From Lewinella sp. 4G2 (GTDB lineage Bacteria; Bacteroidota; Bacteroidia; Chitinophagales; Saprospiraceae): DNA of 64,000 bases. Position 1 is the first letter of the stretch; the number at the start of each line of letters is the position of its first letter. The position numbers were made by a program, and so were the translations under genes. Under the pieces are notes generated by a model that was not told where the DNA came from, did no database searches, and was given only the letters and a program-made list of their open reading frames with translations. Location: NCBI RefSeq assembly GCF_001625015.1, contig NZ_LVWJ02000014.1:3286001-3350000 (forward strand), read 5' to 3'. Shown here in pieces: positions 895 to 40,122 of the stretch.

Positions 895-1027
895 AGCTAA
901 CACAGCAGCACCGACAAGCCACGCTTAAAGATTTGATGTGCTAGGGTAGGGAACTCAGAGCGTTAAGTTTTGAATTTCTATCTTAGCTTTCTCAGGAGCG
1001 TGGCCTGCGTTGCTGCATCCGTTGGGC
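895..1027 (+). repeat. attC-like recombination site, short variant (133 bp)
   Basis: R'' is AGCTAAC at 895-901 and R' is GTTGGGC at 1021-1027. The arms pair through CAGCA..AGCCACGCT against AGCGTGGCCT..TGCTG. It differs from the 220-bp family in its middle. R'' does not match its own R', so the preceding R' outside the window is predicted to be GTTAGCT. One copy of the 54-bp leader repeat follows (1028-1081), ending in another GTTGGGC at 1075-1081. Confidence 0.7.
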
Positions 1028-1202
1028 GTAATAGAATAATTATTATGACTTAGAATACGTTCGATCATCGTCACGTTGGGCGTAAAGGAACAAATAAAAA
1101 GGAATAGATGCTGTTCACTGATTATCGTATCCGGCGATTCAAAGTGACAATGAAAAGTTCGCAACTTACCTTGTTTCAGGTAGCGAATTTCAAATCTTGA
1201 TT

Positions 1203-2087
1203 ATGAAAAAGTATGATTATACATGTGATGGTTGCGGAAGGGAGCATGCTTATTTGACAGGTTGAATTACTCAAGGTTCACCAACCGATATTCTTCAAAA
1301 TAAAGAGAATGTTATTGATAACCCCCACTCTTCAATTCACATAGTGAATAAGGAAAGAGTATATATCAATGGAATAATTCCGCTGTACACACCGGAATTA
1401 GGTGATGAATTAGAATTAGATAACTGGTGTGTTATCAGTTATGATAGTTGGAATGAGGCTATAAAAAATAAAAATTCTATTGAAGGGCGATTATTGTATA
1501 AAGATGATCTATTTCACATTAAGGCCAACACAAATTTCAAAATTGGTTATGATGAAGAAAAAGATGAATTCTTATTTTTTACTGATCAAGAATCATCTGA
1601 CCTGTATAGATGGCAATCGAATGGTTTAATAACAAAAGAAATCAAAAGTCTATTTTCTTCCTTTTATCACAATCTAGAAGATGAAGATACAAGAGATCTG
1701 TACACCTACGATATTAAAGAAGCGGTAGAGTTTCTTCTAGATAATCAAGGAATTTCATACGTGCATGCCCTACTTAATGATGAGATTATATTTCAGTTGA
1801 TCGACTCTTCTGGGCTAGAAAAACCTTCATCAAAGATTATTGGAATAGGAATTGATATTCCCATCGATACAACTGATACAATAACAGAATACAAGATTTT
1901 AAACTTTAGTCGATTATCAACTTTTGATGTCCATTACATTGAAGGAATCAAATTGTACCAGTATGATTATGTTGATGATATGGGAAAACTAGATAAAGAT
2001 GTTCGCGACATCGTGACAGAAGTATATGGAGCTACACCAAGTGAAGTCAAGTACAGATTAAATTTCATGACGAAATTAAAATTATAA
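1203..2087 (+). pseudogene. Hypothetical cassette gene with in-frame TGA near the start
   Basis: An ATG at 1203 opens a frame with a short Cys-rich start (CDGCGREH, zinc-ribbon-like) that meets TGA at 1263-1265 after 20 codons. The same frame then stays open to 2087. Either the gene is broken by one nonsense change (294 codons before it), or translation now begins at the GTG at 1344, giving 247 aa. The long part has no recognised domain. It is acidic, with no signal peptide, and the segment around residues 130-230 has alternating hydrophobic residues typical of a beta-rich fold. An attC-like site starts 6 bp after the stop codon. Confidence 0.55.
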
Positions 2088-2092
2088 AATCC

Positions 2093-2312
2093 GCCCAACA
2101 CTGCAATCCACGTCAAGCCGCTGTCACTTCGAGTCCAGCAGGGTAGGAGGGTTGATGCCCGGCCACTGTTCCGAACACTCGGATGGCCAAAAGTCCTCCG
2201 CAGGCTCCGGAGTTTTGGCCATGCTCGCTTATCGGCGCAGTGGCCTTTCAGTTCCGATTGAGTATCTTAGTGGAGTCAAGGACGCGGCCTGCGTGGGCTG
2301 CAATCGTTGGGC
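2093..2312 (+). repeat. attC-like recombination site (220-bp family)
   Basis: R'' GCCCAAC 2093-2099; R' GTTGGGC 2306-2312. Variable segment is of the GGTAGGAGGGTTGATG type. Followed by a full and a decayed copy of the leader repeat (2313-2406); the GTTGGGC between them is mutated to GTTTTGGGTGC. Confidence 0.9.
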
Positions 2313-2406
2313 GTAAAAGAATAAATATTATGACTTAGAATACGTTCGTTCATCGTCGTTTTGGGTGCGAAAGAAATAAATAATATGAATTAGAATACGT
2401 TTGTTT

Positions 2407-2580
2407 CCTTTACTGGTAGCAATATTGCCGAGTACAATAAATTCGTAGCTTTAGAAAATTACGTTTTATTGTAATCTTCCTGATAAAATTTTAAAGTCAA
2501 TGGGACTGACATTAAATGCTCCTCGTGATTCAAGACTAAGCGTAGAAAAGAAAATATTAACTCATTATGAACTTAGATGA
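2407..2580 (+). pseudogene. Possible 3' remnant of a lost cassette gene
   Basis: Two short protein-like stretches follow each other in different frames. One holds NIAEYNKFVALENYV; the other, open from 2455 to a TGA at 2578, holds KSMGLTLNAPRDSRL. They could be the end of one decayed gene joined by a frameshift, and the tail overlaps the start of the next gene. The stretch is too short to assign to a family and may be chance. Confidence 0.2.
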
Positions 2581-3222: not shown

Positions 3223-3442
3223 GCCCAACACTGCAATCCACGTCAAGCCGCTGTCACTTCGAGTCTAGTAGTGTAGGAGGGTTCATGCCTGGCCACTGGT
3301 CCGAACACTCGGATGGCCAAAAGTCCTCCGCAAGCTCCGGAGTTTTGGCCATGCTCGCTTATCGGCCCAGTGGCCTTTTAGTTCCGATTGACTATCTTAG
3401 TGGAGTTAATGACGCGGCCTGCGTGGGCTGCAATCGTTGGGC
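3223..3442 (+). repeat. attC-like recombination site (220-bp family)
   Basis: R'' GCCCAAC 3223-3229; R' GTTGGGC 3436-3442. The next gene starts only 5 bp after R', with no leader repeat. Confidence 0.9.
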
Positions 3443-3447
3443 GAAAC

Positions 3448-4392: not shown

Positions 4393-5532
4393 GGCGTTGT
4401 TGCATGAAGATTTAAGACAAAGCTTGCGCTCATAAAATATTTAATTAAGCATTTTTTAGTTGAGAAATCGGCATGCCATGGGCTGTCATATGATTGAGTG
4501 CTTTGATTTTAATTTTGTTTTCCTGCGTTTGAGTTTCAAGTGATCGAGAGTAGTGGGTTGGACCAAAGATGGTTTTATAACGGTACATCGCCGTCTCAGA
4601 TAAACTTCGTTGGTGGTAATCGGCTTCTTTTTTCCATTCTGCCCTTCCGACTTCTTCTATGCGTTTAATAAATTGATTGCGAGGATAGTCATCGGCATCA
4701 CCCGGTTCCTCCCAATACCATTTCACCGCGCCTCTCTGAGGTGGAATGACAGGCCAAATATCTCGCTCCAATAAACCATCGTAGCAACTCTGTGCATCAT
4801 AAGCACCATCAAGGTAGACCTCATCGATTTCGGCTTCGACCTGATCGAGAAGATCATTTACCTGAGATTCATCGCTCTCGGAGTTAGTCGTCGTGATATG
4901 GCAATGAATAAAGCCAGTGCAAGGATCAACACCCAAATGAAGTTTACGCCAGGTACGACGCTTGCTCCATCCGTGCTTGCGGCATTTCCACTCGCCTTCA
5001 CCGTAAACCTTGACTCCCGTCGAGTCTATCGCAATCGTGATCGGGCCGCTAGCTGGAATCGCAAAAGGACTAATGTTGAGAGTGCGAAAACGGCGGTTAA
5101 CCTGTGTAAAACTTGGTACTTTCAGGTGCGCTAGGTCCATGAGTTGAAGCAGACCCACGGTAAAACCACGAGACTGTCGATAGGGTAACCGAAAAATAGT
5201 CTTGATCATCATAATGGCCTCGATACAGGTATCACTATAAGTTTCTTGAGCACCTCTCTGGGCTGGCGAGTCACTATACCAATTTTGGGTGACCGACTCG
5301 TCAATAATAAACGTGATGTTACCACGATTTTCCAGGGCTTTGTTGTACTCCGCCCAGTTGACTACCCGGTAATCCTGCTTATCTTTTACTTCAAATCGCT
5401 CGTCCTTCTTTATCTTTGACATGGGCTGGAAATCTATTGATTTAGTTGTCGTAAACCAAAGATATGGGCTCCAGCCCAAATTTATACTAGCCGTTTATGA
5501 GGGGAATCAGGCCCGATTCATGCAACAACGCC
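4393..5532 (-). mobile_element. IS5-family (IS903-type) insertion sequence
   Basis: A complete 1140-bp element. The 16-bp terminal inverted repeats are perfect: GGCGTTGTTGCATGAA at 4393-4408 and its complement at 5517-5532. The flanks carry a 9-bp direct target duplication, GTTGACTAT, at 4384-4392 and 5533-5541; 9 bp is the duplication length of the IS903 group. The single transposase gene runs on the minus strand. Removing the element and one target copy restores one open reading frame across the junction, so insertion into a formerly intact cassette gene is certain. Confidence 0.95.
4445..5479 (-). CDS. IS5-family transposase (DDE)
   Basis: A DDE transposase that cuts and pastes the surrounding IS. 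The region near residues 40-60 (VVNWAEYNKALENRG) is the conserved IS903/IS5 N-terminal signature. Catalytic acidic residues are visible in IAIDSTGVKVYGEGEWK (first Asp), VYLDGAYDA (second Asp) and the late ..LSETAMYRYKTIFG (Glu). The frame opens at 5479, but Met at residue 20 (MSKIKKDERF) is a plausible true start. Length (325-344 aa) suits the family, and the gene appears intact. Confidence 0.93.
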   Translation of the reverse strand: MGWSPYLWFTTTKSIDFQPMSKIKKDERFEVKDKQDYRVVNWAEYNKALENRGNITFIIDESVTQNWYSDSPAQRGAQETYSDTCIEAIMMIKTIFRLPYRQSRGFTVGLLQLMDLAHLKVPSFTQVNRRFRTLNISPFAIPASGPITIAIDSTGVKVYGEGEWKCRKHGWSKRRTWRKLHLGVDPCTGFIHCHITTTNSESDESQVNDLLDQVEAEIDEVYLDGAYDAQSCYDGLLERDIWPVIPPQRGAVKWYWEEPGDADDYPRNQFIKRIEEVGRAEWKKEADYHQRSLSETAMYRYKTIFGPTHYSRSLETQTQENKIKIKALNHMTAHGMPISQLKNA

Positions 5533-5541
5533 GTTGACTAT

Positions 5542-5966: not shown

Positions 5967-6185
5967 GCCCAACACTGCAGCCACGCCAAGCCGCTGTCAC
6001 TTTAAGTCGAGCAAAGTAGTAGGGTAGTTGCCCGGCCACCGGTCCGAACACTCGGATGTCCAAAAGTCCTCCGCAAGCTCCGGAGTTTTGGCCATGCTCG
6101 CTTATCGGCCCAGTGGCCTTTTAGTTCCGATTGATTAACTTAGTGGAGTTAAGGACGCGGCCTGCGTGGGCTGCGTTCGTTGGGC
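5967..6185 (+). repeat. attC-like recombination site (220-bp family)
   Basis: R'' GCCCAAC 5967-5973; R' GTTGGGC 6179-6185. Near R'' it reads CACTGCAGCCACGCC, so one arm position differs from the majority. One leader repeat follows at 6186-6241 with its terminal box mutated (TTTTGGACGC). Confidence 0.9.
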
Positions 6186-6997: not shown

Positions 6998-7217
6998 GCC
7001 CAACACTGCAATCCACGTCAAGCCGCTGTCACTTCGAGTCGATGGCTTTACTACGTCCAAAGCCCGGCCACTGGTCCGAACACTCGGATGTCCAAAAGTC
7101 CTCCGCAGGCTCCGGAGTTTTGGCCATGCTCGCTTATCGGCCCAGTGGCCTTTCAGTTCCGATTGAGTATCTTAGTGGAGTCGAGGACGCGGCCTGCGTG
7201 GGCTGCAATCGTTGGGC
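6998..7217 (+). repeat. attC-like recombination site (220-bp family), followed by a group II intron
   Basis: R'' GCCCAAC 6998-7004; R' GTTGGGC 7211-7217. Variable segment is of the CTACGTCCAAAG type. Five bases after R' (GTAAC) the group II intron begins. The leader repeat that should follow resumes at 9140. Confidence 0.9.
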
Positions 7218-7611
7218 GTAACGTGTGCTCTGAATGGAACTACCAACTATTGATTCAATCAAATAATTTCAAGAACCAATGCTGTGAGTAAGATGATGGT
7301 ATGGCCCATCACTGGCGATTTACAGGAATAGCCAGTAAACTACCCCGAGGTGCTTTGATAGCAATTGATAGGTGCTGAACGTCGTGGGAGAAGGTCCGAC
7401 AAGATCGGATCATGTGAGAATAGAGAAGATGAACGAAAGTGAACCTTTGAAGAAGCGTCGAGAGAACCAAACTCCATCACAACTGTCGGTCTGTTGCTGC
7501 CGAAGGATTAAAGTATTGCGGGTTACCTGTTTACTAGCGTACGGTGGACGGTGTATAGAAGGCATGATCTCTATTCAGGCTTATTCACGGAACAGAGGAA
7601 GCCAGAGTTGA

Positions 7612-9051
7612 ATGTTAAGAGGAAGGCACAAGTCGGTAGAACATCGGCAAGGTCGAATATCGAAGTCAGCTGCTGGTGGCGGATTCAGTCGTAGTAGTGA
7701 TGAAGATGCTGTAATGGCATTGGAGCGAAGGGCTGGACGTGTACAGTCTGGTAAAAGTATGACAACGCCGTCGGGTCGCAAGGTCCGACATAGGAAGATC
7801 AACTGGCACCGGACACGAGGACTATCTAAGTTAACCCCAAAACACTTTCTGGATGCTTATCAAAAAGTAAGGCGAAACGCAGGAGGACCAGGAGTTGACG
7901 GTGTGACGTTGGCAGACTTTGCCCTCGATCTGACCGGTAACCTGTATACTCTGTGGAATCGAGTAACCTCGGGTAGCTATCATCCGGCTGCCGTAAGACG
8001 AAAAGGAATACCGAAAGGGAATGGACAGACTCGCTATCTGGGCATCCCGACGGTTGGAGATCGAATAGTTCAACAAGTTATAAAGGACCGCATCGAGTAC
8101 ATACTGGAAGCCGAATTTATGGATTGTTCGTACGGGTATCGTCCAGGGCGGAGCCAGCATGATGCGCTCCAAGTGGTTCGGTTGGGCGTACGGCAAACGA
8201 GTTGGGTTGTGGATCTGGACGTGTCCAAGTTCTTTGATGAGATGCCGCACGACCTGTTGCGCAAAGCATTAGACCGGCACATCACCGACAAACAGACACG
8301 GGACCTTATCGATCGCTGGCTGGAGGCACCACACCAAGATGAGGAAGGACAATTACACTATCCGCAAGGAGTTGGTACTCCTCAGGGTGGGGTAGTGAGT
8401 CCGCTGCTATCCAACTTGTTCCTGCACTATACGCTGGACAAATGGATGGCGATTAATCGACCGGAGGAAAAGTTGGTACGCTATGCCGATGATGCCATTA
8501 TCTTTTGCCACTCCCGGACAAGAGCGGAGATGGTCAAGAGACTGGTCGAGGAACGCTTCCGAGCGTGTGGTCTGAGGTTGCATCACGAGAAAACGAGGAT
8601 AGTATTTTGTAAGAGGAGTAACAATGCTTCCTCCCACGAGAATATTAGCTTCGACTTCTTAGGCTATCGGTTCAAGCCTTGCTCAAAGAGAACCCAAAGC
8701 GGGAAACTGTTCACTTCTTTTGATGGGGCGATGAGTCCTAAGAAGAAGAAACTAAAGACCGCTGAGTTCCGAGCGATGAAGTTCCACCTGTGGAACACGA
8801 CGACACTGGAAAAGATAGCTGAGGTGCTGAACCCGATCTTACGAGGAATACTCAACTACTATGGCCGGTTCAACCCGCACGGGATGGAAAGTGTGATGAT
8901 GGCGGTTAATGACCGGTTATGCAAATGGGCTAGCCGGAAGTATAGGAAAGTAGGCAAATCAATCCACCGAGTGAGAAAATGGCTGCGGACTACTGCCACC
9001 AGGCGGCCGGAGTTGTTCGCTCATTGGCAGTGGGGATTTACCTATATTTAG
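7612..9051 (+). CDS. ltrA: Group II intron reverse transcriptase/maturase
   Basis: A 479-residue protein that helps splice the intron RNA and copies it into DNA at new sites. RT blocks appear in order: GGPGVDGVTLADF, KGNGQTRYLGIPTVGDRIVQ, YGYRPGRSQHDAL, VVDLDVSKFFDEMPH, GTPQGGVVSPLLSNL, then the catalytic YADDAIIF (about residue 290). A thumb/X (maturase) region follows with ILNYYGRFNPHGMESV and the C-terminal KWLRTTATRRPELFAHWQWG. No HNH endonuclease domain is present, as in short bacterial intron proteins. The start at 7612 is the first in frame; a later Met near residue 70 would still keep all RT blocks. No frameshift, so the intron may be active. Confidence 0.93.
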   Translation: MLRGRHKSVEHRQGRISKSAAGGGFSRSSDEDAVMALERRAGRVQSGKSMTTPSGRKVRHRKINWHRTRGLSKLTPKHFLDAYQKVRRNAGGPGVDGVTLADFALDLTGNLYTLWNRVTSGSYHPAAVRRKGIPKGNGQTRYLGIPTVGDRIVQQVIKDRIEYILEAEFMDCSYGYRPGRSQHDALQVVRLGVRQTSWVVDLDVSKFFDEMPHDLLRKALDRHITDKQTRDLIDRWLEAPHQDEEGQLHYPQGVGTPQGGVVSPLLSNLFLHYTLDKWMAINRPEEKLVRYADDAIIFCHSRTRAEMVKRLVEERFRACGLRLHHEKTRIVFCKRSNNASSHENISFDFLGYRFKPCSKRTQSGKLFTSFDGAMSPKKKKLKTAEFRAMKFHLWNTTTLEKIAEVLNPILRGILNYYGRFNPHGMESVMMAVNDRLCKWASRKYRKVGKSIHRVRKWLRTTATRRPELFAHWQWGFTYI

Positions 9052-9065
9052 CTTCGGTACGCGAA

Positions 9066-9139
9066 GAGCCGGATGATGGGAGACTATCAAGTCCGGTTCT
9101 GCGAGAGCCTCGGGGGGAAGTGCCCCGGGGCTACTCAAC
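9066..9139 (+). ncRNA. Group II intron domains V and VI
   Basis: Domain V spans 9066-9099: GAGCCGG pairs with CCGGTTC around a GGGAGACT-type internal region, with the catalytic AGC at 9067-9069. Domain VI (about 9103-9136) is a GC stem, GAG-A-GCC.. with ..GGC-T-A-CTC, leaving A9133 bulged as the lariat branch point six bases before the 3' splice site at 9139. Confidence 0.85.
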
Positions 9140-10941: not shown

Positions 10942-11072
10942 GCCCAACATTGGCTATACGTAATGCGGGTTTTGGTACTAAATTAAATGTAAATAAATAT
11001 TAACAAACACTCGGCTAAAATGAATGTGAAGTCCATTTTATCCCACACTACGCATAGCCGAGACCGTTGCTC
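10942..11072 (+). repeat. attC-like recombination site, divergent type (131 bp)
   Basis: R'' is GCCCAAC at 10942-10948. The arms are GGCTATACGTA (10952-10962) and TACGCATAGCC (11049-11059), a near-perfect inverted repeat. The R' position reads GTTGCTC (11066-11072), keeping only GTT of the consensus. The loop is AT-rich and unrelated to the 220-bp family. Confidence 0.65.
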
Positions 11073-12058: not shown

Positions 12059-12276
12059 GCCCAACATCGCAGCCACGCCAAGCCGCTACCACTTCGAATC
12101 AATTAGGGTAGGGGGTGGATGCCCGGCCACTGGTCCGAACACTCGGATGTCCAAAAGTCCTCCGCAAGCTCCGGAGTTTTGGCCATGCTCGTTTATCGGC
12201 CCAGCGGCCTTTTAGTTCCGGTTTAGTATCTTAGTGGAGTCAAGGACGCGGCCTGCGTGGGCTGCAGTCGTTGAGC
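12059..12276 (+). repeat. attC-like recombination site (220-bp family), altered R'
   Basis: R'' GCCCAAC 12059-12065; R' GTTGAGC 12270-12276 (one change from GTTGGGC). The arm starts ATCGCAGCCACGCC. No leader repeat follows; the 289 bp before the next gene show no recognisable feature. Confidence 0.88.
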
Positions 12277-13679: not shown

Positions 13680-13899
13680 GCCCAACACTGCAATCCACGT
13701 CAAGCCGCTGTTACTTCGGGTCGAAGGCTCTATCATGTCCAATGCCCGGCCACTGGTCCGAACACTCGGATGGCCAAAAGTCCTCCGCAGGCTCCGGAGT
13801 TTTGGCCATGCTCGCTTATCGTCCCAGTGGCCTTTCAGTTCCGGTTTAGTATCTTAGTGGAGTCATGGACGCGGCCTGCGTGGGCTGCGTTCGTTGGGC
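13680..13899 (+). repeat. attC-like recombination site (220-bp family)
   Basis: R'' GCCCAAC 13680-13686; R' GTTGGGC 13893-13899. One leader repeat follows (13900-13953), ending in a second intact GTTGGGC at 13947-13953. Confidence 0.9.
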
Positions 13900-14095
13900 G
13901 AAATCGAATAAATACTATGACTTAGAATACGTTCGTTGATCGTCACGTTGGGCGAAAAGAATAACAATTGGCATTGGATGACGTCCGTTCATCTTTCTAT
14001 TTAACGGATTCTGACTATACTTGGGCTTTGTAGATCGTCGTTATTAACTGCTAGAGTTGGGTGGGAACTTTAAAAGCACATTCAAGCTATAGCTT

Positions 14096-15021: not shown

Positions 15022-15241
15022 GCCCAACACTGCAATCCACGTCAAGCCGCTGTAACTTGGAGTCAAGCAGAGTAGGAAGGTTGATGCCCGGCCACCGGGC
15101 CGAACACTCGGATGGCCAAAAGTCCTCCGCAGGCTCCGGAGTTTTGGCCATGCTCGCTTATCGGCCCAGTGGCCTTTTAGTTCCGATTGAGTATCTTAGT
15201 GGAGTCAAGGACGCGGCCTGCGTGGGCTGCAATCGTTGGGC
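15022..15241 (+). repeat. attC-like recombination site (220-bp family)
   Basis: R'' GCCCAAC 15022-15028; R' GTTGGGC 15235-15241. Followed by two leader repeats (15242-15340) that are shared base for base with 24647-24745. Confidence 0.9.
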
Positions 15242-16041: not shown

Positions 16042-16266
16042 CTTCTGGAATGAATAAGAATAGGTGGTTAAGTGACAACTATGAACAATTTATATCTTCT
16101 GATTTGCTAAGGATATCTGAAGATATGTCTAAAAATGGAATTTGACAGAGAGTGACTTTTTATGTAAGCAAAATAATATATGTAAGCGATGTAAATGATG
16201 TGATATGGTTTAACTTTTCAGTTATATAGCCATATATTATAGTTTAATCCATGCGTGTTCAATGTG

Positions 16267-16458
16267 ATGAATTGTAATCTTATTCACCCAATTCTTGCAA
16301 ATGAAAATGTTGATCCTAGCTCATGTGGTGAAATACTAAAAAGTACACTGAAATACAAAAAGAGTACTATAGAAAATTACATGAGCCAATCTGGCCACAA
16401 TTATGTTAATAATCTTGTAGAAAAAGTGTTCGATGATTCAACAAACATTGAATTATAG
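16267..16458 (+). CDS. Small hypothetical protein, duplicate copy 1
   Basis: ATG 16267 gives 63 aa (GTG 16255 would add four). It contains DPSSCGEILKSTLKYKKST and ends VFDDSTNIEL. It may be the surviving C-terminus of a larger protein. The identical frame recurs at 16915-17106. No family recognised. Confidence 0.3.
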   Translation: MNCNLIHPILANENVDPSSCGEILKSTLKYKKSTIENYMSQSGHNYVNNLVEKVFDDSTNIEL

Positions 16459-17273: not shown

Positions 17274-17492
17274 GCCCAACACTGCAATCCACGTCAAGCC
17301 GCTGTCACTTCGAGTCGATTGTAGTATCACAACCAAAGCCCGGCCACTAGCCCGCACACTCGGATGTCCAAAAGTCCTCCGCAAGCTCCGGAGTTTTGGC
17401 CATGCTCGCTTATCGGCCCAGTGGCCTTTTAGTTCCGATTGAGTATCTTAGTGGAGTCTAGGACGCGGCCTGCGTGGCTGCAATCGTTGGGC
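17274..17492 (+). repeat. attC-like recombination site (220-bp family)
   Basis: R'' GCCCAAC 17274-17280; R' GTTGGGC 17486-17492. One base of the L' arm is missing (GCGTGGCTGC instead of GCGTGGGCTGC). Two leader repeats follow (17493-17597), the first ending in GCTGGGC. Confidence 0.9.
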
Positions 17493-18635: not shown

Positions 18636-18855
18636 GCCCAACACTGCAATCCACGTCAAGCCGCTGTAACTTCGAATCAAGTAGGGTAGAAGGGTTGATG
18701 CCCGGCCACTGGCCCGAACACTCGGATGTCCAAAATTCCTCCGCAGGCTCCGGAGTTTTGGCCATGCTCGTTTATCGGCCCAGCGGCCTTTTAGTTCCGG
18801 TTTAGTATCTTAGTGGAGTCAAGGACGCGGCCTGCGTGGGCTGCAGTCGTTGGGC
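18636..18855 (+). repeat. attC-like recombination site (220-bp family)
   Basis: R'' GCCCAAC 18636-18642; R' GTTGGGC 18849-18855. Shares the TTTAGTATC and CTCGTTTATCGG variants with the site at 12059. No leader repeat follows. Confidence 0.9.
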
Positions 18856-19770: not shown

Positions 19771-19990
19771 GCCCAACACTGCAATCCACGTCAAGCCGCT
19801 ATCACTTCGAGATGATGGCACTATTACGTCCAAAGCCCGGCCACTGGTCCGAACGCTCGGATGGCCAAAAGTCCTCCGCAAGCTCCGGAGTTTTGGCCAT
19901 GCTCGCTTATCGGCCCAGTGGCCTTTTAGTTCCAGTTTAGTATCTTAGTGGAGTCAAGGACGCGGCCTGCGTGGGCTGCAATCGTTGGGC
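19771..19990 (+). repeat. attC-like recombination site (220-bp family)
   Basis: R'' GCCCAAC 19771-19777; R' GTTGGGC 19984-19990. Two leader repeats follow. Confidence 0.9.
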
Positions 19991-20896: not shown

Positions 20897-21116
20897 GCCC
20901 AACACTGCAATCCACGTCAAGCCGCTGTCACTTCGAATCAAGCAGGGTAGAAGGGTGCAGGCTCGGCCACTGGTCCGAACACTCGGATGTCCAAAAGTCC
21001 TCCGCAAGCTCCGGAGTTTTGGCCATGCTCGCTTATCGGTCCAGTGGCCTTTCAGTTCCGATTGAGTATCTTAGTGGAGTCAAGGACGCGGCCTGCGTGG
21101 GCTGCAATCGTTGGGC
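20897..21116 (+). repeat. attC-like recombination site (220-bp family)
   Basis: R'' GCCCAAC 20897-20903; R' GTTGGGC 21110-21116. One leader repeat follows (21117-21170), ending GTTGGGC. Confidence 0.9.
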
Positions 21117-23265: not shown

Positions 23266-23485
23266 GCCCAACACTGCAATCCACGTCAAGCCGCTGTTAC
23301 TTCGGATCGAAGGCTCTATTACGTCCCAAGCCCGGCCACTGGTCCGAACACTCGGATGTCCAAAAGTCCTCCGCAGGCTCCGGAGTTTTGGCCATGCTCG
23401 CTTATCGGCCCAGTGGCCTTTTAGTTCCGATTGAGTATCTTAGTGGAGTGAAGGACGCGGCCTGCGTGGGCTGCAATCGTTGGGC
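23266..23485 (+). repeat. attC-like recombination site (220-bp family)
   Basis: R'' GCCCAAC 23266-23272; R' GTTGGGC 23479-23485. A vestigial GCAGAACTTCACAGCC motif lies 46 bp upstream (23220). Only the first bases of a leader repeat follow. Confidence 0.9.
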
Positions 23486-24427: not shown

Positions 24428-24646
24428 GCCCAACACTGCATCCACGTCAAGCCGCTGTCACTTCGAGTTCAGCCTTTTATTACGGTTCATGCCCGGCCAC
24501 TGGTCCGAACACTCGGATGGCCAAAAGTCCTCCGCAAGCTACGGAGTTTTGGCCATGCTCGCTTTTCGGCCCAGTGGCCTTTTAGTTCCGATTGATTATC
24601 TTAGTGGAGTCAAAGACGCGGCCTGCGTGGGCTGCAATCGTTGGGC
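24428..24646 (+). repeat. attC-like recombination site (220-bp family)
   Basis: R'' GCCCAAC 24428-24434; R' GTTGGGC 24640-24646. The central hairpin has one change (GCTACGGAG for GCTCCGGAG). Two leader repeats follow (24647-24745). Confidence 0.9.
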
Positions 24647-25635: not shown

Positions 25636-25855
25636 GCCCAACACTGCAATCCACGTCAAGCCGCTGTCACTTCGAGTCGATGGCTAGTCTACGTCCAAAG
25701 CCCGGCCACTGGTCCGAACACTCGGATGTCCAAAAGTCCTCCGCAAGCTCCGGAGTTTTGGCCATGCTCGTTTATCGGCCCATTGGCCTTTTAGTTCCGA
25801 TTGAGTATCTTAGTGGAGTCAAGGACGCGGCCTGCGTGGGCTGCAATCGTTGGGC
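25636..25855 (+). repeat. attC-like recombination site (220-bp family)
   Basis: R'' GCCCAAC 25636-25642; R' GTTGGGC 25849-25855. No leader repeat; the next ATG is 22 bp away. Confidence 0.9.
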
Positions 25856-27136: not shown

Positions 27137-27355
27137 GCCCAACACTGCATCCACGTCAAGCCGCTGTCACTTCGAGTCAATGGCTCTGCTACAGTTCGTG
27201 CCCGGCCACTGGTCCGCATACTCGGATGTCCAAAAGTCCTCCGCAAGCTCCGGAGTTTTGGCCATGCTCGCTTAGCGGCCCAGTGGCCTTTTAGTTCCGA
27301 TTGAGTATCTTAGTGGAATTAAGGACGCGGCCTGCGTGGGCTGCAATCGTTGGGC
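27137..27355 (+). repeat. attC-like recombination site (220-bp family)
   Basis: R'' GCCCAAC 27137-27143; R' GTTGGGC 27349-27355. Two leader repeats follow (27356-27470), the first ending GCTGGGC. Confidence 0.9.
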
Positions 27356-27599: not shown

Positions 27600-28331
27600 A
27601 TGATGATAGATACATTGACAAGAATAGGAAAGCACCACACTAATCACTGTGAAGATTCATGTGGAAATTTTCAAATCGATGAAAGTCGGTTCCTAATCGC
27701 GGTTTCCGATGGTTGTTCGATGGGTACTGAAAGTCACTTTGCGTCGACTTTATTCATGAAAGTGCTTAAGGAGATAGCCAAGGTCCACTATAACTTAAGT
27801 TTCATCGGTAAGAGTGAACCAAATATTGATGGTCTTTTAATGGTGATTTTGAAAGGACTTTTTAATAAAGTCAAAATGATTAGAGATACACTTCAGCTTG
27901 ATAAATATGAATTATTGGCTACCTTGATAGTAGCGGTGTTTGATAGTAAGACCAAAGAGGTATCTGTTATTACAATAGGCGATGGTTTAATCTCTATTGA
28001 TGACAAGATATATGAATACGACCAATCTAATCGACCTGATTATGTTGGCTATCACTTAGACGAAATCTTTGAGGATTGGTTCAGCGACCAAAGGCAAATC
28101 TTGTCTACGACATTTGAAAAATCAATATCAATATCATCAGATGGTATATTTACTTTTTCGGATGACTTCGATGAGCCAGTGAGAAACATCAGGCAAAGAC
28201 AAATAATTGCGGATTTAATGATACGCGTAAATCCGGATCAACGAAGTATACAAAATAAAATGGATGGATATTTGGATAATGAAAACTTATCAACAAATGA
28301 TGATGTCGCAGTTGTAAGTGTTTGTCTATAA
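27600..28331 (+). CDS. PP2C-family Ser/Thr phosphatase-like protein (243 aa)
   Basis: The order of motifs fits a compact PP2C phosphatase, a metal-dependent enzyme that removes phosphate from Ser/Thr: HTNHCEDS near the start, FLIAVSDGCSMGTESHFAS (the metal-binding DG), ITIGDGLISI, SISISSDGIFTFSDD, and NDDVAVVSV at the end. No signal peptide or membrane segment. It stands alone in its cassette, with no kinase partner nearby. ATG 27600 or the next ATG at 27603 may be used. Confidence 0.82.
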   Translation: MMIDTLTRIGKHHTNHCEDSCGNFQIDESRFLIAVSDGCSMGTESHFASTLFMKVLKEIAKVHYNLSFIGKSEPNIDGLLMVILKGLFNKVKMIRDTLQLDKYELLATLIVAVFDSKTKEVSVITIGDGLISIDDKIYEYDQSNRPDYVGYHLDEIFEDWFSDQRQILSTTFEKSISISSDGIFTFSDDFDEPVRNIRQRQIIADLMIRVNPDQRSIQNKMDGYLDNENLSTNDDVAVVSVCL

Positions 28332-28416: not shown

Positions 28417-28637
28417 GCCCAACACTGCAATCCACGGCAAGCCGCTGTCACTTCGAGTCGAAGGCTGTATTTCGTCCAAAGCCCGGCCACCGATCCGAAC
28501 ACTCGGATGTCCAAAAGTCCTCCGCAGAGCTCCGGAGTTTTGGCCATGCTCGCTTATCGGCCCAGTGGCCTTTTAGTTCCGATTGACTATCTTAGTGGAG
28601 TCAAGGACGCGGCCTGCGTGGGCTGCAATCGTTGGGC
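28417..28637 (+). repeat. attC-like recombination site (220-bp family)
   Basis: R'' GCCCAAC 28417-28423; R' GTTGGGC 28631-28637. One extra base in the central hairpin loop (GCAGAGCTCC). One leader repeat follows (28638-28692). Confidence 0.9.
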
Positions 28638-29554: not shown

Positions 29555-29774
29555 GCCCAACACTGCAATCCACGTCAAGCCGCTGTCGTTTCGAGTCTAT
29601 TATAGAACTACGTCCAAAGCCCGGCCACTGGTCCGAACACTCGGATGGCCAAAAGTCCTCCGCAGGCTCCGGAGTTTTGGCCATGCTCGCTTATCGGCCC
29701 AGTGGCCTTTCAGTTCCGATTGAGTATCTTAGTGGAGTCGAGGACGCGGCCTGCGTGGGCTGCAATCGTTGGGC
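29555..29774 (+). repeat. attC-like recombination site (220-bp family)
   Basis: R'' GCCCAAC 29555-29561; R' GTTGGGC 29768-29774. No leader repeat. The next 178 bp hold a short protein-like stretch (GQISEQSNKDDKFTHGKPV) that may be a gene remnant. Confidence 0.9.
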
Positions 29775-30590: not shown

Positions 30591-30810
30591 GCCCAACACT
30601 GCAATCCACGTCAAGCCGCTGTCACTTCGAGTCGATTGTAGTATTACGTCCGAAGCCCGGCCACTGGTCCGAACACTCGGATGGCCAAAAGTCCTCCGCA
30701 AGCTCCGGAGTTTTGGCCATGCTCGCTTAACGGCCCAGTGGCCTTTTAGTTCCGATTGAGTATCTTAGTGGAGTTAAGGATGCGGCCTGCGTGGGCTGCA
30801 ATCGTTGGGC
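30591..30810 (+). repeat. attC-like recombination site (220-bp family)
   Basis: R'' GCCCAAC 30591-30597; R' GTTGGGC 30804-30810. One leader repeat follows (30811-30865), ending GTTGGTGG. Confidence 0.9.
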
Positions 30811-31920: not shown

Positions 31921-32140
31921 GCCCAACACTGCAATCCACGTCAAGCCGCTGTCACTTCAAGTCGATTGTAGTATTACGTCCAAAGCCCGGCCACTGGTCC
32001 GAACACTCGGATGGCCAAAAGTCCTCCGCAAGCTCCGGAGTTTTGGCCATGCTCGCTTATCGGCCCAGTGGCCTTTTAGTTCCGATTGAGTATCTTAGTG
32101 GAGTCAAGGATGCGGCCTGCGTGGGCTGCAATCGTTGGGC
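31921..32140 (+). repeat. attC-like recombination site (220-bp family)
   Basis: R'' GCCCAAC 31921-31927; R' GTTGGGC 32134-32140. Two leader repeats follow (32141-32252), the second ending GTTGGGC. Nearly identical to the site at 30591. Confidence 0.9.
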
Positions 32141-33510: not shown

Positions 33511-33730
33511 GCCCAACACTGCAATCCACGTCAAGCCGCTATCACTTCGGGTCGACGGCTCTATTACGTCCTAAGACCGGCCACTGGTCCGTTCACTCGG
33601 ATGTCCAAAAGTCCTCCGCAAGCTCCGGAGTTTTGGCCATGCTCGCTTATCGGCCCAGTGGCCTTTCAGTTTCGGTTTAGTATCTTAGTGGAGTCAAGGA
33701 CGCGGCCTGCGTGCACTGCAATCGTTGGGC
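33511..33730 (+). repeat. attC-like recombination site (220-bp family)
   Basis: R'' GCCCAAC 33511-33517; R' GTTGGGC 33724-33730. The L' arm reads GCGTGCACTGC, which weakens the stem next to R'. One leader repeat follows (33731-33786), ending GTTAGGC. Confidence 0.88.
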
Positions 33731-34905: not shown

Positions 34906-35125
34906 GCCCAACACTGCACTCCACGTCAAGCCGCTGTCACTTCAAGTCGATTGTAGTATTACGTCCAAAGCCCGGCCACTGGTCCGAACACTCGGATGTC
35001 CAAAAGTCCTCCGCAGGCTCCGGAGTTTTGGCCATGCTCACTTATCGGCCCAGTGGCCTTTTAGTTCCGATTGAGTATCTTAGTGGCGTCAAGGACGCGG
35101 CCTGCGTGGGCTGCAATCGTTCCAT
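34906..35125 (+). repeat. attC-like recombination site (220-bp family) with R' GTTCCAT
   Basis: R'' GCCCAAC 34906-34912. R' reads GTTCCAT (35119-35125), which does not match its own R'' but is the exact complement of the next cassette's R'' (ATGGAAC, 37122-37128). This is what integron crossover at G/TT predicts. Confidence 0.9.
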
Positions 35126-35146
35126 GCAATGTAAAAAACAGAGACA

Positions 35147-37117
35147 GTGAAAAGAAGCTATTATGATGATCAATTTAGTGAGTTCAAGAAATTAGAAGTC
35201 AACCATATCCTGGGCGAATTAAGCCTAAATCATTCATTTGATCTAAACGATCTACAAAAGAACGCATGGGTTTCGCAAATTCAACTACTACAGGAAGCTA
35301 TCGATGATAATATTAGAGGTAAAATTTATTTTGAGTTTGGAATTCCCAGAATGGGTAAAAGAGTTGATAATATTTTAATTATCAATGGCATAATTCTGGT
35401 CGTAGAATTTAAAATCGGTGAAAAGTCTTACCCAAAACATGCCGTTGAGCAAGTACTCGATTATTCAATTGATCTACAGAACTTTCATGAAGGGAGCCAT
35501 TCTGCACTTCTAATTCCGGTACTAGTCTGTACGAAGGGGTACGAGGAGAGTTTCTCTTTAGAGTTCATCAAGAATATTTCAAATGTAGTGAAGTTGAATG
35601 CTGAGAACCTAGGTCCATTTATTAAATACATAGATGGATTAGATGTTAGTTCTTGTCTAAATGTAGGGGCATGGGAAAATTCTAGCTATAAGCCCACTCC
35701 AACAATCGTCCAAGCAGCTCAGGCATTATATAAAGGGCATAATGTCGACGAGATATCAAGGTCTGACTCCGGAGCGATAAATTTATCTAAAACAGCGAAC
35801 TGTCTTAGCTCAATAATAGAATCCTCGAAGCAAAGTAGACAAAAATCGATATGCTTTGTAACAGGGGTTCCAGGAGCAGGTAAAACCTTGGCTGGTTTAA
35901 ATATTGCAACAAGTCGAATGAAAGTTGATGAGGATGAACATGCAGTATTCCTTTCTGGAAACGGCCCTCTAGTCGATGTATTAAGAGAAGCGTTAACGCG
36001 CGATGAAGTCAGAACAGGAAAAAGCTCGGGAGTAATCATCACAAAAAAAGAAGCAGCAATAAAATCGAACGCTTTCATCCAAAATATTCACCACTTTCGA
36101 GATGATAATTTAAGGTCAATTAAGCCGCCAGTTGAGAAAGTCGTAGTATTTGATGAAGCCCAACGTGCATGGACAAAAAAACAAGCTTCTGATTTTATGT
36201 CTCGTAAGAAGGGAGTTTCAGATTTTGATATGTCAGAACCGGAATTCTTAATCAGCGTAATGGATCGGCATAGTGACTGGTGTACCATAGTTTGTCTCAT
36301 CGGTGGTGGACAAGAGATAAACACTGGTGAAGCAGGATTAGAGGAATGGGTAGCTTCTCTAGGTAATTCGTATACTGATTGGAAGGTCTATTTTTCGGAG
36401 CAGATTGTTCAAGATCAAAATTACTTGAGGACCACCGAGTCTATATCGTGGCTAAAGTACAACGGAAATAGAGAGACTAACTTACATCTTGCTGTCTCAG
36501 TTAGATCATTTAGATCCGAACGGGTGTCAGAATTCGTACAAAGCTTACTTGATGTTAACCTGCTACGATGTCAGCAAACTTACGAATCGATTCACAAAGA
36601 ATTTCCTATCGTGGTGACTAGAAGTTTAAAGAAAGCAAAGCAATGGTTAAGATTCCGACGAAGAGGAACAGAGAGGATCGGAATAGTATCATCGTCAGGA
36701 GCTAAAAGGCTAAGAACTGTTAGCGTGGACGTTGCTCATTCAATAGTACCTTCCAATTGGTTTTTAAACACAAGTTCTGACATTAGGTCGTCAGACTTTC
36801 TAGAGGAAGTTGCAACTGAGTTTGATATTCAAGGTCTAGAAATAGATTGGACTTGTTTAGCATGGGGAGCAAATTTATTTCTTGATGAAAATAATGAATG
36901 GAATTTCAGAAAACTGAGTGGGACCAAGTGGCAGAAGATCAAGAAGGATGTTGATCAACAATATTTGTTGAATTCATACAGGGTGTTGCTGACTAGGGCG
37001 AGACAAGGTATGATCATCTTTATTCCAGAAGGCGACTCAAGAGATCAAACACGAGATATTCGTTTCTATGATGGAACATTTGCTTTCCTAAAAGCAATTG
37101 GCTTACAGGAAATTTAG
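35147..37117 (+). CDS. PD-(D/E)XK nuclease-DUF2075 helicase fusion (656 aa)
   Basis: The GTG start at 35147 lies 21 bp after R'. Residues about 58-90 (KIYFEFGIPRMGKRVDNILIINGIILVVEFKIG) contain the D..ExK core of a PD-(D/E)XK nuclease. A P-loop helicase of the DUF2075 type follows: Walker A GVPGAGKT (240-247), Walker B VVVFDEAQ (about 340), and a C-terminal motif YRVLLTRARQGMIIFIP. Enzymes of this build act on nucleic acids in defence or repair; which one is unknown. At almost 2 kb it is the largest cassette gene, and its attC-like site (37122) is of another type than the site before it, so it probably entered from a different array. Confidence 0.85.
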   Translation: MKRSYYDDQFSEFKKLEVNHILGELSLNHSFDLNDLQKNAWVSQIQLLQEAIDDNIRGKIYFEFGIPRMGKRVDNILIINGIILVVEFKIGEKSYPKHAVEQVLDYSIDLQNFHEGSHSALLIPVLVCTKGYEESFSLEFIKNISNVVKLNAENLGPFIKYIDGLDVSSCLNVGAWENSSYKPTPTIVQAAQALYKGHNVDEISRSDSGAINLSKTANCLSSIIESSKQSRQKSICFVTGVPGAGKTLAGLNIATSRMKVDEDEHAVFLSGNGPLVDVLREALTRDEVRTGKSSGVIITKKEAAIKSNAFIQNIHHFRDDNLRSIKPPVEKVVVFDEAQRAWTKKQASDFMSRKKGVSDFDMSEPEFLISVMDRHSDWCTIVCLIGGGQEINTGEAGLEEWVASLGNSYTDWKVYFSEQIVQDQNYLRTTESISWLKYNGNRETNLHLAVSVRSFRSERVSEFVQSLLDVNLLRCQQTYESIHKEFPIVVTRSLKKAKQWLRFRRRGTERIGIVSSSGAKRLRTVSVDVAHSIVPSNWFLNTSSDIRSSDFLEEVATEFDIQGLEIDWTCLAWGANLFLDENNEWNFRKLSGTKWQKIKKDVDQQYLLNSYRVLLTRARQGMIIFIPEGDSRDQTRDIRFYDGTFAFLKAIGLQEI

Positions 37118-37121
37118 ATGC

Positions 37122-37254
37122 ATGGAACACCGCAGCCGCGTCAACCCACGCGGATCGCCGGTGGGGTGGAGCCTAAGTTTCGGGGGAGGGACCATCTTGT
37201 GCTTTGCCCTATCTTTGGTGGTGCGCGCGGGCTGCGCGACTGCAAACGTTGGGC
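37122..37254 (+). repeat. attC-like recombination site, GC-rich short type (133 bp)
   Basis: R'' ATGGAAC 37122-37128; R' GTTGGGC 37248-37254. Arms CCGCAGCCGCG and GCGCGACTGC pair. The loop is GC-rich (GGATCGCCGGTGGGGTGGAGCC) and matches only the site at 39988. Leader repeats follow (37255-37363), ending GTTAGGC. Confidence 0.85.
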
Positions 37255-37445: not shown

Positions 37446-37667
37446 ATGGTACTAGAATCACCACTAACTAACGTACAGCTTGAACTGATGAAGATGTTTA
37501 GTCATGATCTTGATGATGATGACCTGATCTCTCTTAAACGGACTTTGGCAAATTTCTTTGCTGAGAAAGCCAGCGCTGAGATGGATAGGCTTTGGAAGGA
37601 GAAAAACTGGTCTGATCAAACTATGGAGAACTGGCTAGAAGGAGATAAGGAATTCAGCGAGCAGTGA
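37446..37667 (+). CDS. Antitoxin-like small protein (73 aa)
   Basis: A short acidic, helical protein (LELMKMFSHDLDDDDLISLKRTLANFFAEKASAEMDRLWKEKNW). Its stop overlaps the toxin start by four bases (GTGA), the usual coupling in toxin-antitoxin pairs. The N-terminus has no visible DNA-binding ribbon, so autoregulation is unproven. It would neutralise the PIN toxin by binding it. Confidence 0.75.
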   Translation: MVLESPLTNVQLELMKMFSHDLDDDDLISLKRTLANFFAEKASAEMDRLWKEKNWSDQTMENWLEGDKEFSEQ

Positions 37668-38083
37668 GAGTTGTATTAGATACAAATAGCCTGATCGTTT
37701 CAATTGGTCGAAAATCTAAATTCCGTCCAATATTTGATTCACTTCTCCACGGTCAAATCACTTTGGTCGTTTCTAATGATGTTCTTTCCGAATACGTTGA
37801 AATACTAGAGCAAAGAACAAATGCAATAGTTGCAGAAAACATTGGTAACTTCTTGATGAGGTCGCCTGACGTGAATAAGATTGAAATATATTTTAAATGG
37901 GCCGCAATATACGCGGATGCGCATGATAACAAATTTGTCGATTGTGCACTCAATGGAAATGCTCAATTCATTGTGACTGATGACAAGCACTTAAATGTTT
38001 TGAAGGAAACTGAATTCCCAAAGATGAAAGTCATCAGAACCAGAGACTTTTTGAATATGATTAGTGAGCAGGATGGATTATAG
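37664..38083 (+). CDS. PIN-domain toxin (139 aa)
   Basis: A PIN-domain RNase of a type II toxin-antitoxin pair. Acidic residues of the fold are visible: VVLDTNSLI (Asp 5/6), LSEYVEILEQ (Glu near 46), DNKFVDCALN (Asp near 87-91) and FIVTDDKHL (Asp near 105). The GTG start overlaps the antitoxin gene. Toxin-antitoxin cassettes are common in large integron arrays, where they are thought to limit loss of the array. The pair appears intact. Confidence 0.88.
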   Translation: MRVVLDTNSLIVSIGRKSKFRPIFDSLLHGQITLVVSNDVLSEYVEILEQRTNAIVAENIGNFLMRSPDVNKIEIYFKWAAIYADAHDNKFVDCALNGNAQFIVTDDKHLNVLKETEFPKMKVIRTRDFLNMISEQDGL

Positions 38084-38228: not shown

Positions 38229-38448
38229 GCCCAACACGGCAATCCACGTCAAGCCGCTGTTACTTCGAGTCGATTGTAATATTAAGTCCATAGCCCGGCC
38301 ACTGGTCCGAACACTCGGATGGCCAAAAGTCCTCCGCAAGCTCCGGAGTTTTGGCCATGCTCGCTTACCGGCCCAGTGCCCTTTTAGTTCCAATTGAGTA
38401 TCTTAGTAAAGTTAAAGACGCGGCCTGCGTGGGCTGTAATCGTTCTGC
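38229..38448 (+). repeat. attC-like recombination site (220-bp family) with R' GTTCTGC
   Basis: R'' GCCCAAC 38229-38235. R' reads GTTCTGC (38442-38448), the exact complement of the next cassette's R'' GCAGAAC (39988-39994). Confidence 0.9.
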
Positions 38449-38465
38449 GAAATCAACAAAACAAG

Positions 38466-38837
38466 CTATTGAAATATAATTTTCCCCTCTTCCTTAAAAA
38501 ACTGATGACTCCAATCGACCATCAATTGTAAGAGTGGATTTAAACTTTCCCCAAAATCGGTTAAACTATATTCTACTATTTTTGGCTCCTTACTTTTAAT
38601 CTCTACTCTAACTATTAATTTATCTTTTTCGAGTTTTTTCAGTTGATCTGTAAGAGTTTTGTCAGTGATTTCGGGAATCAATTTTTTGATTTGGTTAAAC
38701 CGAAGCTTCTCCTGACTAAGATACCAGAGTATTGGTAATCTCTATTTCCCACTAATGTATCGATTGACTAAATCCATAGAGCAATGAAAGCTCTCATTTC
38801 TGACGGATAATCTAATTTCTTTTCCTTCAAATTTCAT
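38466..38837 (-). pseudogene. HxlR-family regulator with an in-frame amber codon
   Basis: On the minus strand a frame starts at ATG 38837 (MKFEGKEIRLSVRNESFHCSM) and reads to 38466, 123 codons, with one TAG at 38742-38744. HxlR proteins have SGKWxLPILWYL here; this reads SGK-stop-RLPILWYL, so a Trp codon (TGG) became TAG. The rest of the winged helix (LRFNQIKKLIPEITDKTLTDQL) is intact. It is the only minus-strand gene of the array apart from the IS and is divergent from the SDR gene, a usual place for a regulator. Confidence 0.8.
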
Positions 38838-38922
38838 AAGACAAGTTTATACTATCCATGTGGATAGTTATTGTGTAGGTAGTTTAAGAAACATAGTTTT
38901 GCGCTTCACTAAGAAACAAACC

Positions 38923-39564
38923 ATGAAGACAGCTATCATAATTGGATACGGACCTGGGGTAAGTCACTATGTAGGTCATCTATTGGGAGGCAGAGGTTAT
39001 CGACTAGGCATCATAAGTAGAAGTAAAGATAGACTAGAAAAATATTCCAGCTCCAACATGATAAAAGGAGTTTCTACTACGTTTAGGGTGGCAGATGCAT
39101 ATGATACGGACAGATTACTGCAAGCAGTTAGTGAACTTGTCGCTGAACTTGGAGGTGTTGATCTCATTATCTATAATGCTGCTGCGTTAAAGATGCGTGG
39201 TATTTTAGAGGATAATATATCAGAAATGTTAGATGACTACAAAATTACTGTTTTGAATGGTCTTGAGGTAGTTAAAAGTAATATTCAACATCTATCTGAC
39301 AAGAGGGGTACAGTAATTTTCACAGGTGCTGTTTTTTCGGAAAATCCTAGTTCTGATTTTGGTTCCCTGTCTTTAGGAAAGGCTTCATTGAAAAATCTTG
39401 TCTACCAACTTAACCCATTATTGAATAAGCACAATATAAATGTGGGCTTGATAACTATCATGGGCCATATGCATGAAGGTGCAGATAAATATCACCCGAG
39501 TAGTGTCGCAGAGAAGTATATTGAGTTACTAGACGACCCCTCAAAAACTGAAATTATTTACTAA
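38923..39564 (+). CDS. Short-chain dehydrogenase/reductase (213 aa)
   Basis: ATG 38923 gives the typical Rossmann start MKTAIIIGYGPGVSHYVGHLL, a GxGxxxxxx nucleotide site (GYGPGVS). Other SDR motifs are visible: a D in VADAYDTD, VDLIIYNAAALK (the NNAG-like motif), and GTVIFTGA. The usual YxxxK is replaced by SLSLGKAS, so the catalytic Tyr appears lost and activity is uncertain. The gene overlaps the SnoaL-like gene by one base (TAATG) and is divergent from the HxlR pseudogene. Confidence 0.8.
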   Translation: MKTAIIIGYGPGVSHYVGHLLGGRGYRLGIISRSKDRLEKYSSSNMIKGVSTTFRVADAYDTDRLLQAVSELVAELGGVDLIIYNAAALKMRGILEDNISEMLDDYKITVLNGLEVVKSNIQHLSDKRGTVIFTGAVFSENPSSDFGSLSLGKASLKNLVYQLNPLLNKHNINVGLITIMGHMHEGADKYHPSSVAEKYIELLDDPSKTEIIY

Positions 39565-39920
39565 TGGATATAATAATCACTTTTATAGAAGGTTGGAACT
39601 CTCCCCACTCAGACAGAAGAGGTGAACTAATTAGATTGTCCACCTCTAAAGATATCATTTATAGTGATACTCATGTTCCTGAAGAAATTATTGGTAGAGA
39701 TAAGCTAGTTGGATTGGTGACTTTATTTCGAAGTAGAATAAGTCATAAATTAACTATAGTTGATGACATAAATTGTCACCACAACCGCTTCTATTTTCGT
39801 TGGAGGTTGATCGAAGATCATCATACGCTATCAGATGGTGTCTACTTTGGAACGATAGATGCTTCCGGGAGGATTTCTGAACTCATTGGATTCATTGATA
39901 ACTTTTATGGATTCAGATGA
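39564..39920 (+). CDS. SnoaL/NTF2-like protein (118 aa)
   Basis: A small cone-shaped fold protein: helical start (IITFIEGWNSPHSDRRGELIRL), then FEATURE strands around YSDTHVPEEIIGRDKLVGLV, and a C-terminal strand pair FYFRWRLIEDHHTLSDGVYFGTIDASGRISELIGFID. This is the SnoaL-like pattern (..F.W......G.D......GrI..l.gF). It follows the SDR gene with a one-base overlap, so the two are co-translated and may act on the same small molecule. Confidence 0.75.
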   Translation: MDIIITFIEGWNSPHSDRRGELIRLSTSKDIIYSDTHVPEEIIGRDKLVGLVTLFRSRISHKLTIVDDINCHHNRFYFRWRLIEDHHTLSDGVYFGTIDASGRISELIGFIDNFYGFR

Positions 39921-39987
39921 CCTACAATAGGCTCTATCAGAAAATAGGGCAGACCGTAAATCCAACTTTATTGACAAAATAAAATTC

Positions 39988-40122
39988 GCAGAACACCGCA
40001 GCCGCGTCACCCCCCGCGCGGATCGTCGGTGGGGCGGAGCCGAAGTTTTGGGGGAGGGACCATCCTTTGCTTTGCCTTATCTTAGGTGGGAGGCGCGGGC
40101 TGCGCGGCTGCAAACGTTGGGC
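39988..40122 (+). repeat. attC-like recombination site, GC-rich short type (135 bp); last in the array
   Basis: R'' GCAGAAC 39988-39994; R' GTTGGGC 40116-40122. The arms CCGCAGCCGCG and CGCGGCTGC pair well. Together with 37122 it forms a second site family near the right end. Confidence 0.85.

Follow-up and report, generated by a model that had tools for sequence, protein, structure and literature searches.

A large integron-like cassette array in Lewinella sp. 4G2 lies beside a tyrosine recombinase that lacks the IntI-specific insertion

Introduction

Vibrio superintegrons hold tens of mostly orphan gene cassettes on the same strand, with near-uniform, species-specific attC sites, duplicated cassettes, toxin-antitoxin pairs and G/TT boxes. 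We analyzed a stretch of 64,000 nucleotides from Lewinella sp. 4G2 (the window; C14:3286001-3350000 of its genome, G000, so that a window coordinate is the genome coordinate minus 3286000), which carries part of a cassette array in which all of these Vibrio features were found as well. The two systems differ in that the putative integrase of Lewinella is without the IntI insertion, bears an additional N-terminal domain and is transcribed towards the cassettes, and in that the Lewinella array has attC-like sites of about 220 bp (285 bp in G019, a genome of the same genus) and 54-bp leader units. From the sequence comparisons reported here, we consider it highly probable that this locus is a large sedentary integron-like cassette array run by a dedicated, non-canonical tyrosine recombinase encoded next to it.

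In the Treponema integrons described in PMC3607928, the integrase gene is likewise read towards attI and the cassettes. They were published as intI integrons, whereas the Lewinella integrase has no IntI insertion (it is patchless), and the likeness is one of description, not of sequence. Integrons have been reported from Bacteroidota (PMC8618304, PMC9668308) and from the Bacteroidetes/Chlorobi group (PMC2426708), and PMC9024848 names Salinibacter ruber M1 as a complete integron in Bacteroidetes, in agreement with a preliminary description of the window, made from its letters alone, which had called integrons rarely described in this phylum. The S. ruber integron shares its phylum with the Lewinella array; it was found by IntegronFinder, which looks for the IntI-specific domain. 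This domain is regarded as defining and is the second profile required by IntegronFinder (PMC9668308), and proteins having it were chosen in PMC2426708. PMC8138268 calls it essential to the working of integrons while noting that its conservation is incomplete in the integron-like subgroup. We found no paper on Lewinella together with integrons. Patchless Bacteroidota integrons were the subject of no paper among the matches listed, judged by titles and the starts of abstracts and with preprints outside the search; prior work is possible.

Results

The window holds the right-hand end of the array

The preliminary description had reported 26 inverted repeats alternating with same-strand genes, and their number, coordinates and plus-strand orientation were confirmed (Table 1). 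The 40-kb array that it let begin at position 895 proved to be the right-hand end of one cluster reaching 56 kb further left. With the repeats located singly, the whole array comprised 65 cassettes over 95,932 bp, starting with a first GTTGGGC at C14:3230184 and ending with the final R' at 3326116, with a median cassette of 1,330 bp; the largest open reading frame (ORF) lay on the plus strand in 64 of the 65 cassettes, an inserted transposase being the exception. Beyond the last repeat lie two transposase-like ORFs, followed by other genes. GCCCAAC occurs 62 times on the two strands of the window, against 5.4 expected and a maximum of 12 in 100 shuffles. Twenty-two window repeats measure about 220 bp (family D1) and four are others; across the whole array, the repeat length is 218-221 bp in 61 cases and 131-135 bp in four. 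IntegronFinder limits the length of attC to 200 bp.

As in integrons, the cassettes are delimited by attC-like sites that have R''/R' boxes (RYYYAAC...GTTRRRY) and contain a palindrome able to fold. For one 220-bp repeat, folding of the bottom strand gave -53.8 kcal/mol (z -5.8), which none of 200 shuffles equaled, and z against shuffles fell below -2 in four of the seven sites folded, the others being two short sites of the window and that of locus L090. A 32-nt 3' arm, searched with up to three mismatches through the 5.2-Mb genome, gave 56 matches on one strand, all inside C14:3231587-3324448 and none in the rest of the genome. When one 220-bp repeat was compared by BLAST with 100 genomes, including that of Lewinella sp. 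4G2 itself, a single weak 50-bp match was found outside this genome; the repeat therefore seems to be specific to the species. At gathering scores, Rfam returned a group II intron alone. That the 220-bp copies are very alike and contain a strong inner hairpin would suit dispersed palindromic repeats, similar to miniature inverted-repeat transposable elements or repetitive extragenic palindromes, lying between genes without site-specific recombination; their restriction to one strand and one cluster argues against this explanation.

Neighboring cassettes obey a register rule

If an attC is cut at G/TT, the bases that follow the G are the start of the next cassette, and the R'' with which they are expected to pair is the one of that same cassette. 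In the Lewinella array, 7-mers agreed in 60 of 64 cases at shift +1, compared with 54-56 at the six other shifts (55 of 65 at shift 0); few junctions are informative because most boxes read GTTGGGC. The strongly deviating starts GTTAGCT, GTTCCAT and GTTCTGC each fit the R'' of the following repeat and not that of their own repeat. In the array of G019, the boxes vary, and an exact 9-nt complement was present in 12 of 12 cases at shift +1, in 1 of 13 at shift 0 and in 0 to 2 elsewhere, whereas 100,000 permutations gave a mean of 2.3 and a maximum of 10. With repeats located by their arms only, the counts at shift +1 and shift 0 were 8/9 and 0/10 in Flavobacterium enshiense (L098), 4/7 and 0/8 in Rufibacter (L105), where the misses at shift +1 include neighbors with undetected sites in between, and 2/2 and 0/3 at L160. 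The reverse strand was useless as a control for this test because the rule is symmetric. The arrays thus carry the sequence imprint expected of an integron, that of a crossover at G/TT with R' going to the next cassette. This complementarity across cassettes, which other repeat families follow in other genomes, also counts against dispersed repeats.

Cassettes duplicate and break at GTT

A blastn comparison among the 65 cassettes stripped of attC gave 25 rows (>150 nt, plus strand), from which 14 pairs were taken for a breakpoint check. The 11 rows left out were leader-unit similarities (17/18, 17/20 twice, 18/20 twice, 18/23 and 20/23 twice), an inner transposon piece (7/44), the second piece of 7/61 and an inner match (54/57). 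Both copies started at GTT in all 14 pairs; ten pairs reached within 2 nt of attC, and four stopped short of it (12/48, 8/44, 48/54 and the first piece of 7/61). Cassettes 32 and 60, although 43 kb from each other, share 1,377 bp without a single difference.

A loose motif search placed one to four of the 54-bp leader units in 37 of the 65 cassettes. Their number varies between duplicated cassettes, with breaks at GTT: the 5' ends differ by 53 or 162 bp, equivalent to one or three leader units, in pairs 4/51, 5/25, 19/40 and 18/46 (cassette 46 begins at the position of the third inner box of cassette 18), and by 413 bp in pair 33/55, where the break is again at GTT. The GTT inside leader units seems to be a further exchange point, which may explain GTTGAGC as a cassette start. 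The idea that the leader unit is a copy of attI was unsupported, its local score of 12 being reached by 55% of 2000 shuffles.

Breaks at GTT were also seen between genomes. Two genomes of the same genus, G013 and G016, share an 86.6% block across the integrase and attI that ends at the last T of GTT; the two sequences match at 193 of 203 positions as far as the end of this GTT, and past it at 122 of 200 in a gapped alignment. The remaining blocks common to these two loci are attC-sized. Lewinella cassettes 14 and 63 (a PIN pair) and 56 (PP2C) have relatives inside G019 cassettes, at 75% and 50% identity, respectively, and the attC sites of those cassettes are of another type. According to the preliminary description, the repeats would be ordinary dispersed ones if gene blocks never changed exactly at the GTT boxes; the 14 duplicated pairs and the G013/G016 block do so. 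Together with the register, these breaks lend strong support to its integron-type layout of attC sites and cassettes and leave dispersed repeats so improbable that we give them almost no weight.

A tyrosine recombinase without the IntI insertion precedes the array

That no integrase was in view is correct for the window and not for the locus. A tyrosine recombinase gene lies 5' of the array at C14:3226738-3228066 (window coordinates -59262 to -57934), about 58 kb left of base 1. The preliminary description had predicted on this side an integron integrase with the IntI-specific patch, divergent from the cassettes; the gene that we found encodes no such patch and is transcribed towards the cassettes. 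Its product is the best match to TIGR02249 in the genome, at 130.8 bits against a cut-off of 265. The best sequence match in PDB is IntI4 (2A3V, E 1.5e-40) in two blocks, with residues 182-245 of 2A3V unmatched and positions 182-238 of the hidden Markov model missing, i.e., the insertion by which integron integrases are recognized is absent. In 20 aligned proteins, R299, K324, H388, R391 and H414 are invariant and Y423 is conserved at 90% or more; we take these six to be the expected catalytic residues. KGxxDR and HxLRH are separated by 64-66 residues in 83 of the 90 loci that were parsed and by 67-76 in six, compared with 107 in the canonical IntI of L147; 11 further loci were not parsed. The recombinase carries an extra N-terminal domain, which is weakly HARP-like in relatives; the HARP structure of SMARCAL1 (4O66) was absent among the 50 matches listed for this domain by Foldseek and by VIA-align. 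Among the 120 homologues listed for the integrase, most were unnamed, and the names present were XerC, XerD, integrase or tyrosine-type recombinase kinds and one hypothetical protein; "integron integrase" was not among them, and it was frequent among those listed for canonical IntI. In a tree of 64 recombinases, ten canonical IntIs, all found with L147, grouped together (100/100), separately from the patchless forms. The recombinases that accompany arrays did not form a single clade, and the tree left the relation of IntI to them unsettled.

An attI beside the integrase gene is indicated by a cassette link in G019, L069 and L073, together with the break at GTT. Candidates picked by eye lie 99-308 bp after the integrase stop codon in 9 of 15 same-genus loci, and the other six gave none, some because the contig ended. 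In Lewinella sp. 4G2, the putative attI box is simply the first GTTGGGC (window coordinate -55816), and a Mutator/IS256-type transposase (L018:6501-7763) lies between it and the integrase gene.

Arrays without a neighboring intI (CALINs, clusters of attC sites lacking an integron integrase) have been published (PMC9024848, PMC7923331). By this precedent, the array could belong to a canonical integron in which an insertion-bearing IntI is encoded elsewhere or was lost, the neighboring recombinase being a bystander. However, no IntI match above the curated TIGR02249 cut-off was present in 17 array genomes, that of Lewinella sp. 4G2 (given as 100% complete) included, where a completeness figure is missing for 12 of the other 16; the canonical control genome, run alongside these 16, passed the cut-off. 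In addition, a patchless recombinase stands 5' of arrays in many genera, and in G013 and G016 it forms with attI the single homologous block ending at GTT. Taken with the association between arrays and the long form of the gene described below, these results make a CALIN highly improbable.

Arrays accompany the long form of the recombinase

Of 20 same-genus genomes, 17 had an orthologue of the recombinase (at least 56% identity), which was a partial match in one and, in most, a single full match. For the scan of named genomes, we used the best 80 of at least 588 loci and counted chains of linked cassettes with exact complementarity; chains are detections and not independent register tests because the links are picked by that complementarity. 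Linked chains were seen in G019, Algibacter onchidii, Flavobacterium enshiense, Arundinibacter roseus, Lutibacter, Seonamhaeicola, Rufibacter and others, and in a shuffle control, one per locus, the chain was never above 1. Chains of at least two cassettes 3' of the integrase were found at 17 of 34 long-form and 0 of 16 short-form loci, the cut of 210 residues before the KGxxDR motif having been chosen after ORF lengths were known. The 34 long rows include L092 and L108, which are misparsed and without an array, and L080, with its chain 12 kb away; L144 was unparsed and uncounted, and the first link counted at L088 extends across the integrase and probably arose by chance.

The Lewinella recombinase shares its fold and the lack of an insertion with the Xer recombinases (XerA, XerC and XerD), and in Foldseek, XerA followed directly after IntI4 (2A3V), which ranked first. 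The genome contains several other tyrosine recombinases, and relatives of the gene often carry the name XerD in the source annotations. Host housekeeping Xer-type recombinases might thus exchange the cassettes, with the neighboring gene being the integrase of a mobile element. The recombinase differs from Xer proteins in its extra N-terminal domain and its link to cassette arrays, and its presence, mostly as one full match, across the genus, the attI candidates shortly past its stop codon and the association of its long form with arrays render this explanation distinctly improbable.

Saccharibacillus kuerlensis (L118; Bacillota) also has a long, patchless integrase, accompanied by two linked cassettes whose attC-like sites measure 96 nt; the integrase type may therefore not be limited to Bacteroidota.

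Cassette genes and other elements

Twenty of 30 window cassette ORFs submitted, excluding transposase and intron ORFs, had no Pfam match at cut-off. The 73-aa ORF and the PIN-domain protein of one two-gene cassette (Table 1) are probably a toxin-antitoxin pair; this cassette is duplicated in the one starting at C14:3251288. The first cassette of the array (L018:8275-9393) encodes a PD-(D/E)XK nuclease-like protein and a partner matching the PADLOC candidate PDC-S26. A group II intron with a reverse transcriptase/maturase ORF occupies approximately 7220-9139 of the window (5' end set by eye) in the same direction as the cassettes, seemingly inserted in the leader unit directly after an attC and not in the attC itself. 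At 4445-5479, on the minus strand, an insertion sequence transposase appears to split a cassette gene. One cassette contains a tandem duplication (16074-17021, 648-bp spacing) that includes part of an attC. Short R''-like fossils (e.g. CCCAACTTCACAGCCATTA) stand directly before full attC sites at approximately 16580 and 18577 of the window and 9067 of L021, and are perhaps remains of another attC type. To the right of the array, at 45827-53588, lie clusters of 37-nt repeats (families D7 and D8) that are separate from the attC-like families.

Table 1. Sites and genes of the array within the window (all on the plus strand, window coordinates).
Feature	Position	Strand	Remark
attC-like site, short type	895..1027	+	R'' AGCTAAC pairs with own cassette start GTTAGCT
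attC-like site, 220-bp type	2093..2312	+	
attC-like site, 220-bp type	3223..3442	+	
attC-like site, 220-bp type	5967..6185	+	
attC-like site, 220-bp type	6998..7217	+	
attC-like site, another type	10942..11072	+	R'' GCCCAAC, R' GTTGCTC
attC-like site, 220-bp type	12059..12276	+	R' GTTGAGC
attC-like site, 220-bp type	13680..13899	+	
54-bp leader unit, example	13893..13946	+	at cassette start; next GTTGGGC at 13947
attC-like site, 220-bp type	15022..15241	+	
attC-like site, 220-bp type	17274..17492	+	
attC-like site, 220-bp type	18636..18855	+	
attC-like site, 220-bp type	19771..19990	+	
attC-like site, 220-bp type	20897..21116	+	
attC-like site, 220-bp type	23266..23485	+	
attC-like site, 220-bp type	24428..24646	+	
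attC-like site, 220-bp type	25636..25855	+	
attC-like site, 220-bp type	27137..27355	+	
PP2C-like phosphatase	27600..28331	+	relative in G019 array, 50% identity
attC-like site, 220-bp type	28417..28637	+	
attC-like site, 220-bp type	29555..29774	+	
attC-like site, 220-bp type	30591..30810	+	
attC-like site, 220-bp type	31921..32140	+	
attC-like site, 220-bp type	33511..33730	+	
attC-like site, 220-bp type	34906..35125	+	R' GTTCCAT, part of next cassette
Schlafen group 3 helicase, candidate defence protein	35147..37117	+	SLFN-g3_helicase; PADLOC candidate PDC-S41, E 1.5e-280
attC-like site, short type	37122..37254	+	R'' ATGGAAC pairs with own cassette start GTTCCAT
Two-gene cassette: 73-aa ORF and PIN-domain protein	37446..38083	+	PIN_3 match; relative of PIN gene in G019 array, 75% identity
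attC-like site, 220-bp type	38229..38448	+	R' GTTCTGC, part of next cassette
Last attC-like site, short type	39988..40122	+	R'' GCAGAAC pairs with own cassette start GTTCTGC

Discussion

The array, its register rule, the duplication units beginning at GTT, the linkage to this kind of recombinase and the missing insertion are all read from genome sequences, and by them the system is an integron in behavior that fails the usual IntI definition. We propose that the tyrosine recombinase encoded directly before the array would exchange strands at the G/TT of the GTTRRRY-like box found at the end of every folded repeat, and likewise at an attI site lying 3' of the recombinase gene. Cassettes would leave as circles and then reinsert, and a cassette's first bases would consequently pair with its own R'' box. 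The extra N-terminal domain may help to bind the folded attC DNA. In this scheme, we infer catalysis by this recombinase, use of the bottom strand as a single strand, the circular intermediates and any role of the N-terminal domain.

Several observations weigh against this proposal. In the Lewinella array, pairing is limited at 9 nt, with 9-mers agreeing in 16 of 64 cases at shift +1 and 8-11 at other shifts, and 4 of 64 junctions break the 7-mer rule (the start GTTGAGC twice, GTTGCTC once and one end GCCCTAC). Of the short repeats, the two that were folded did so weakly or no better than shuffles (892-1027, z -1.9, with 9 of 200 shuffles as good; 37118-37254, z -0.2, with 81 of 200). All 14 control genomes also match TIGR02249 below the cut-off, so that the sub-cut-off match of the Lewinella recombinase means little by itself, and Pfam did not find HARP in this protein. 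The orthologue is missing in 3 of 20 same-genus genomes, half of the long-form loci have no chain of two, and Neolewinella maritima (L067) has the integrase and an attI-like box with no chain in 18 kb. At L137 and L143, the latter a short form, a chain of two lies on the 5' side of the integrase. Other host tyrosine recombinases could act on the sites.

A wider hypothesis, to which we give somewhat less than an even chance, is that Bacteroidota have an integron lineage of their own, whose recombinases never had the IntI insertion and whose N-terminal HARP-like domain would recognize folded attC. This would be a second molecular solution to structure-directed cassette capture, missed since surveys filter on the insertion, and in Lewinella sp. 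4G2 the 54-bp leader units would serve as further, non-palindromic exchange sites. Similar systems in other Bacteroidota have probably been overlooked because surveys require the insertion, which suggests that integron prevalence in this phylum is underestimated. A cassette system that follows integron rules in the absence of the insertion separates integron function from that insertion and offers a natural comparison for how folded attC is recognized, and its arrays are a store of unstudied genes.

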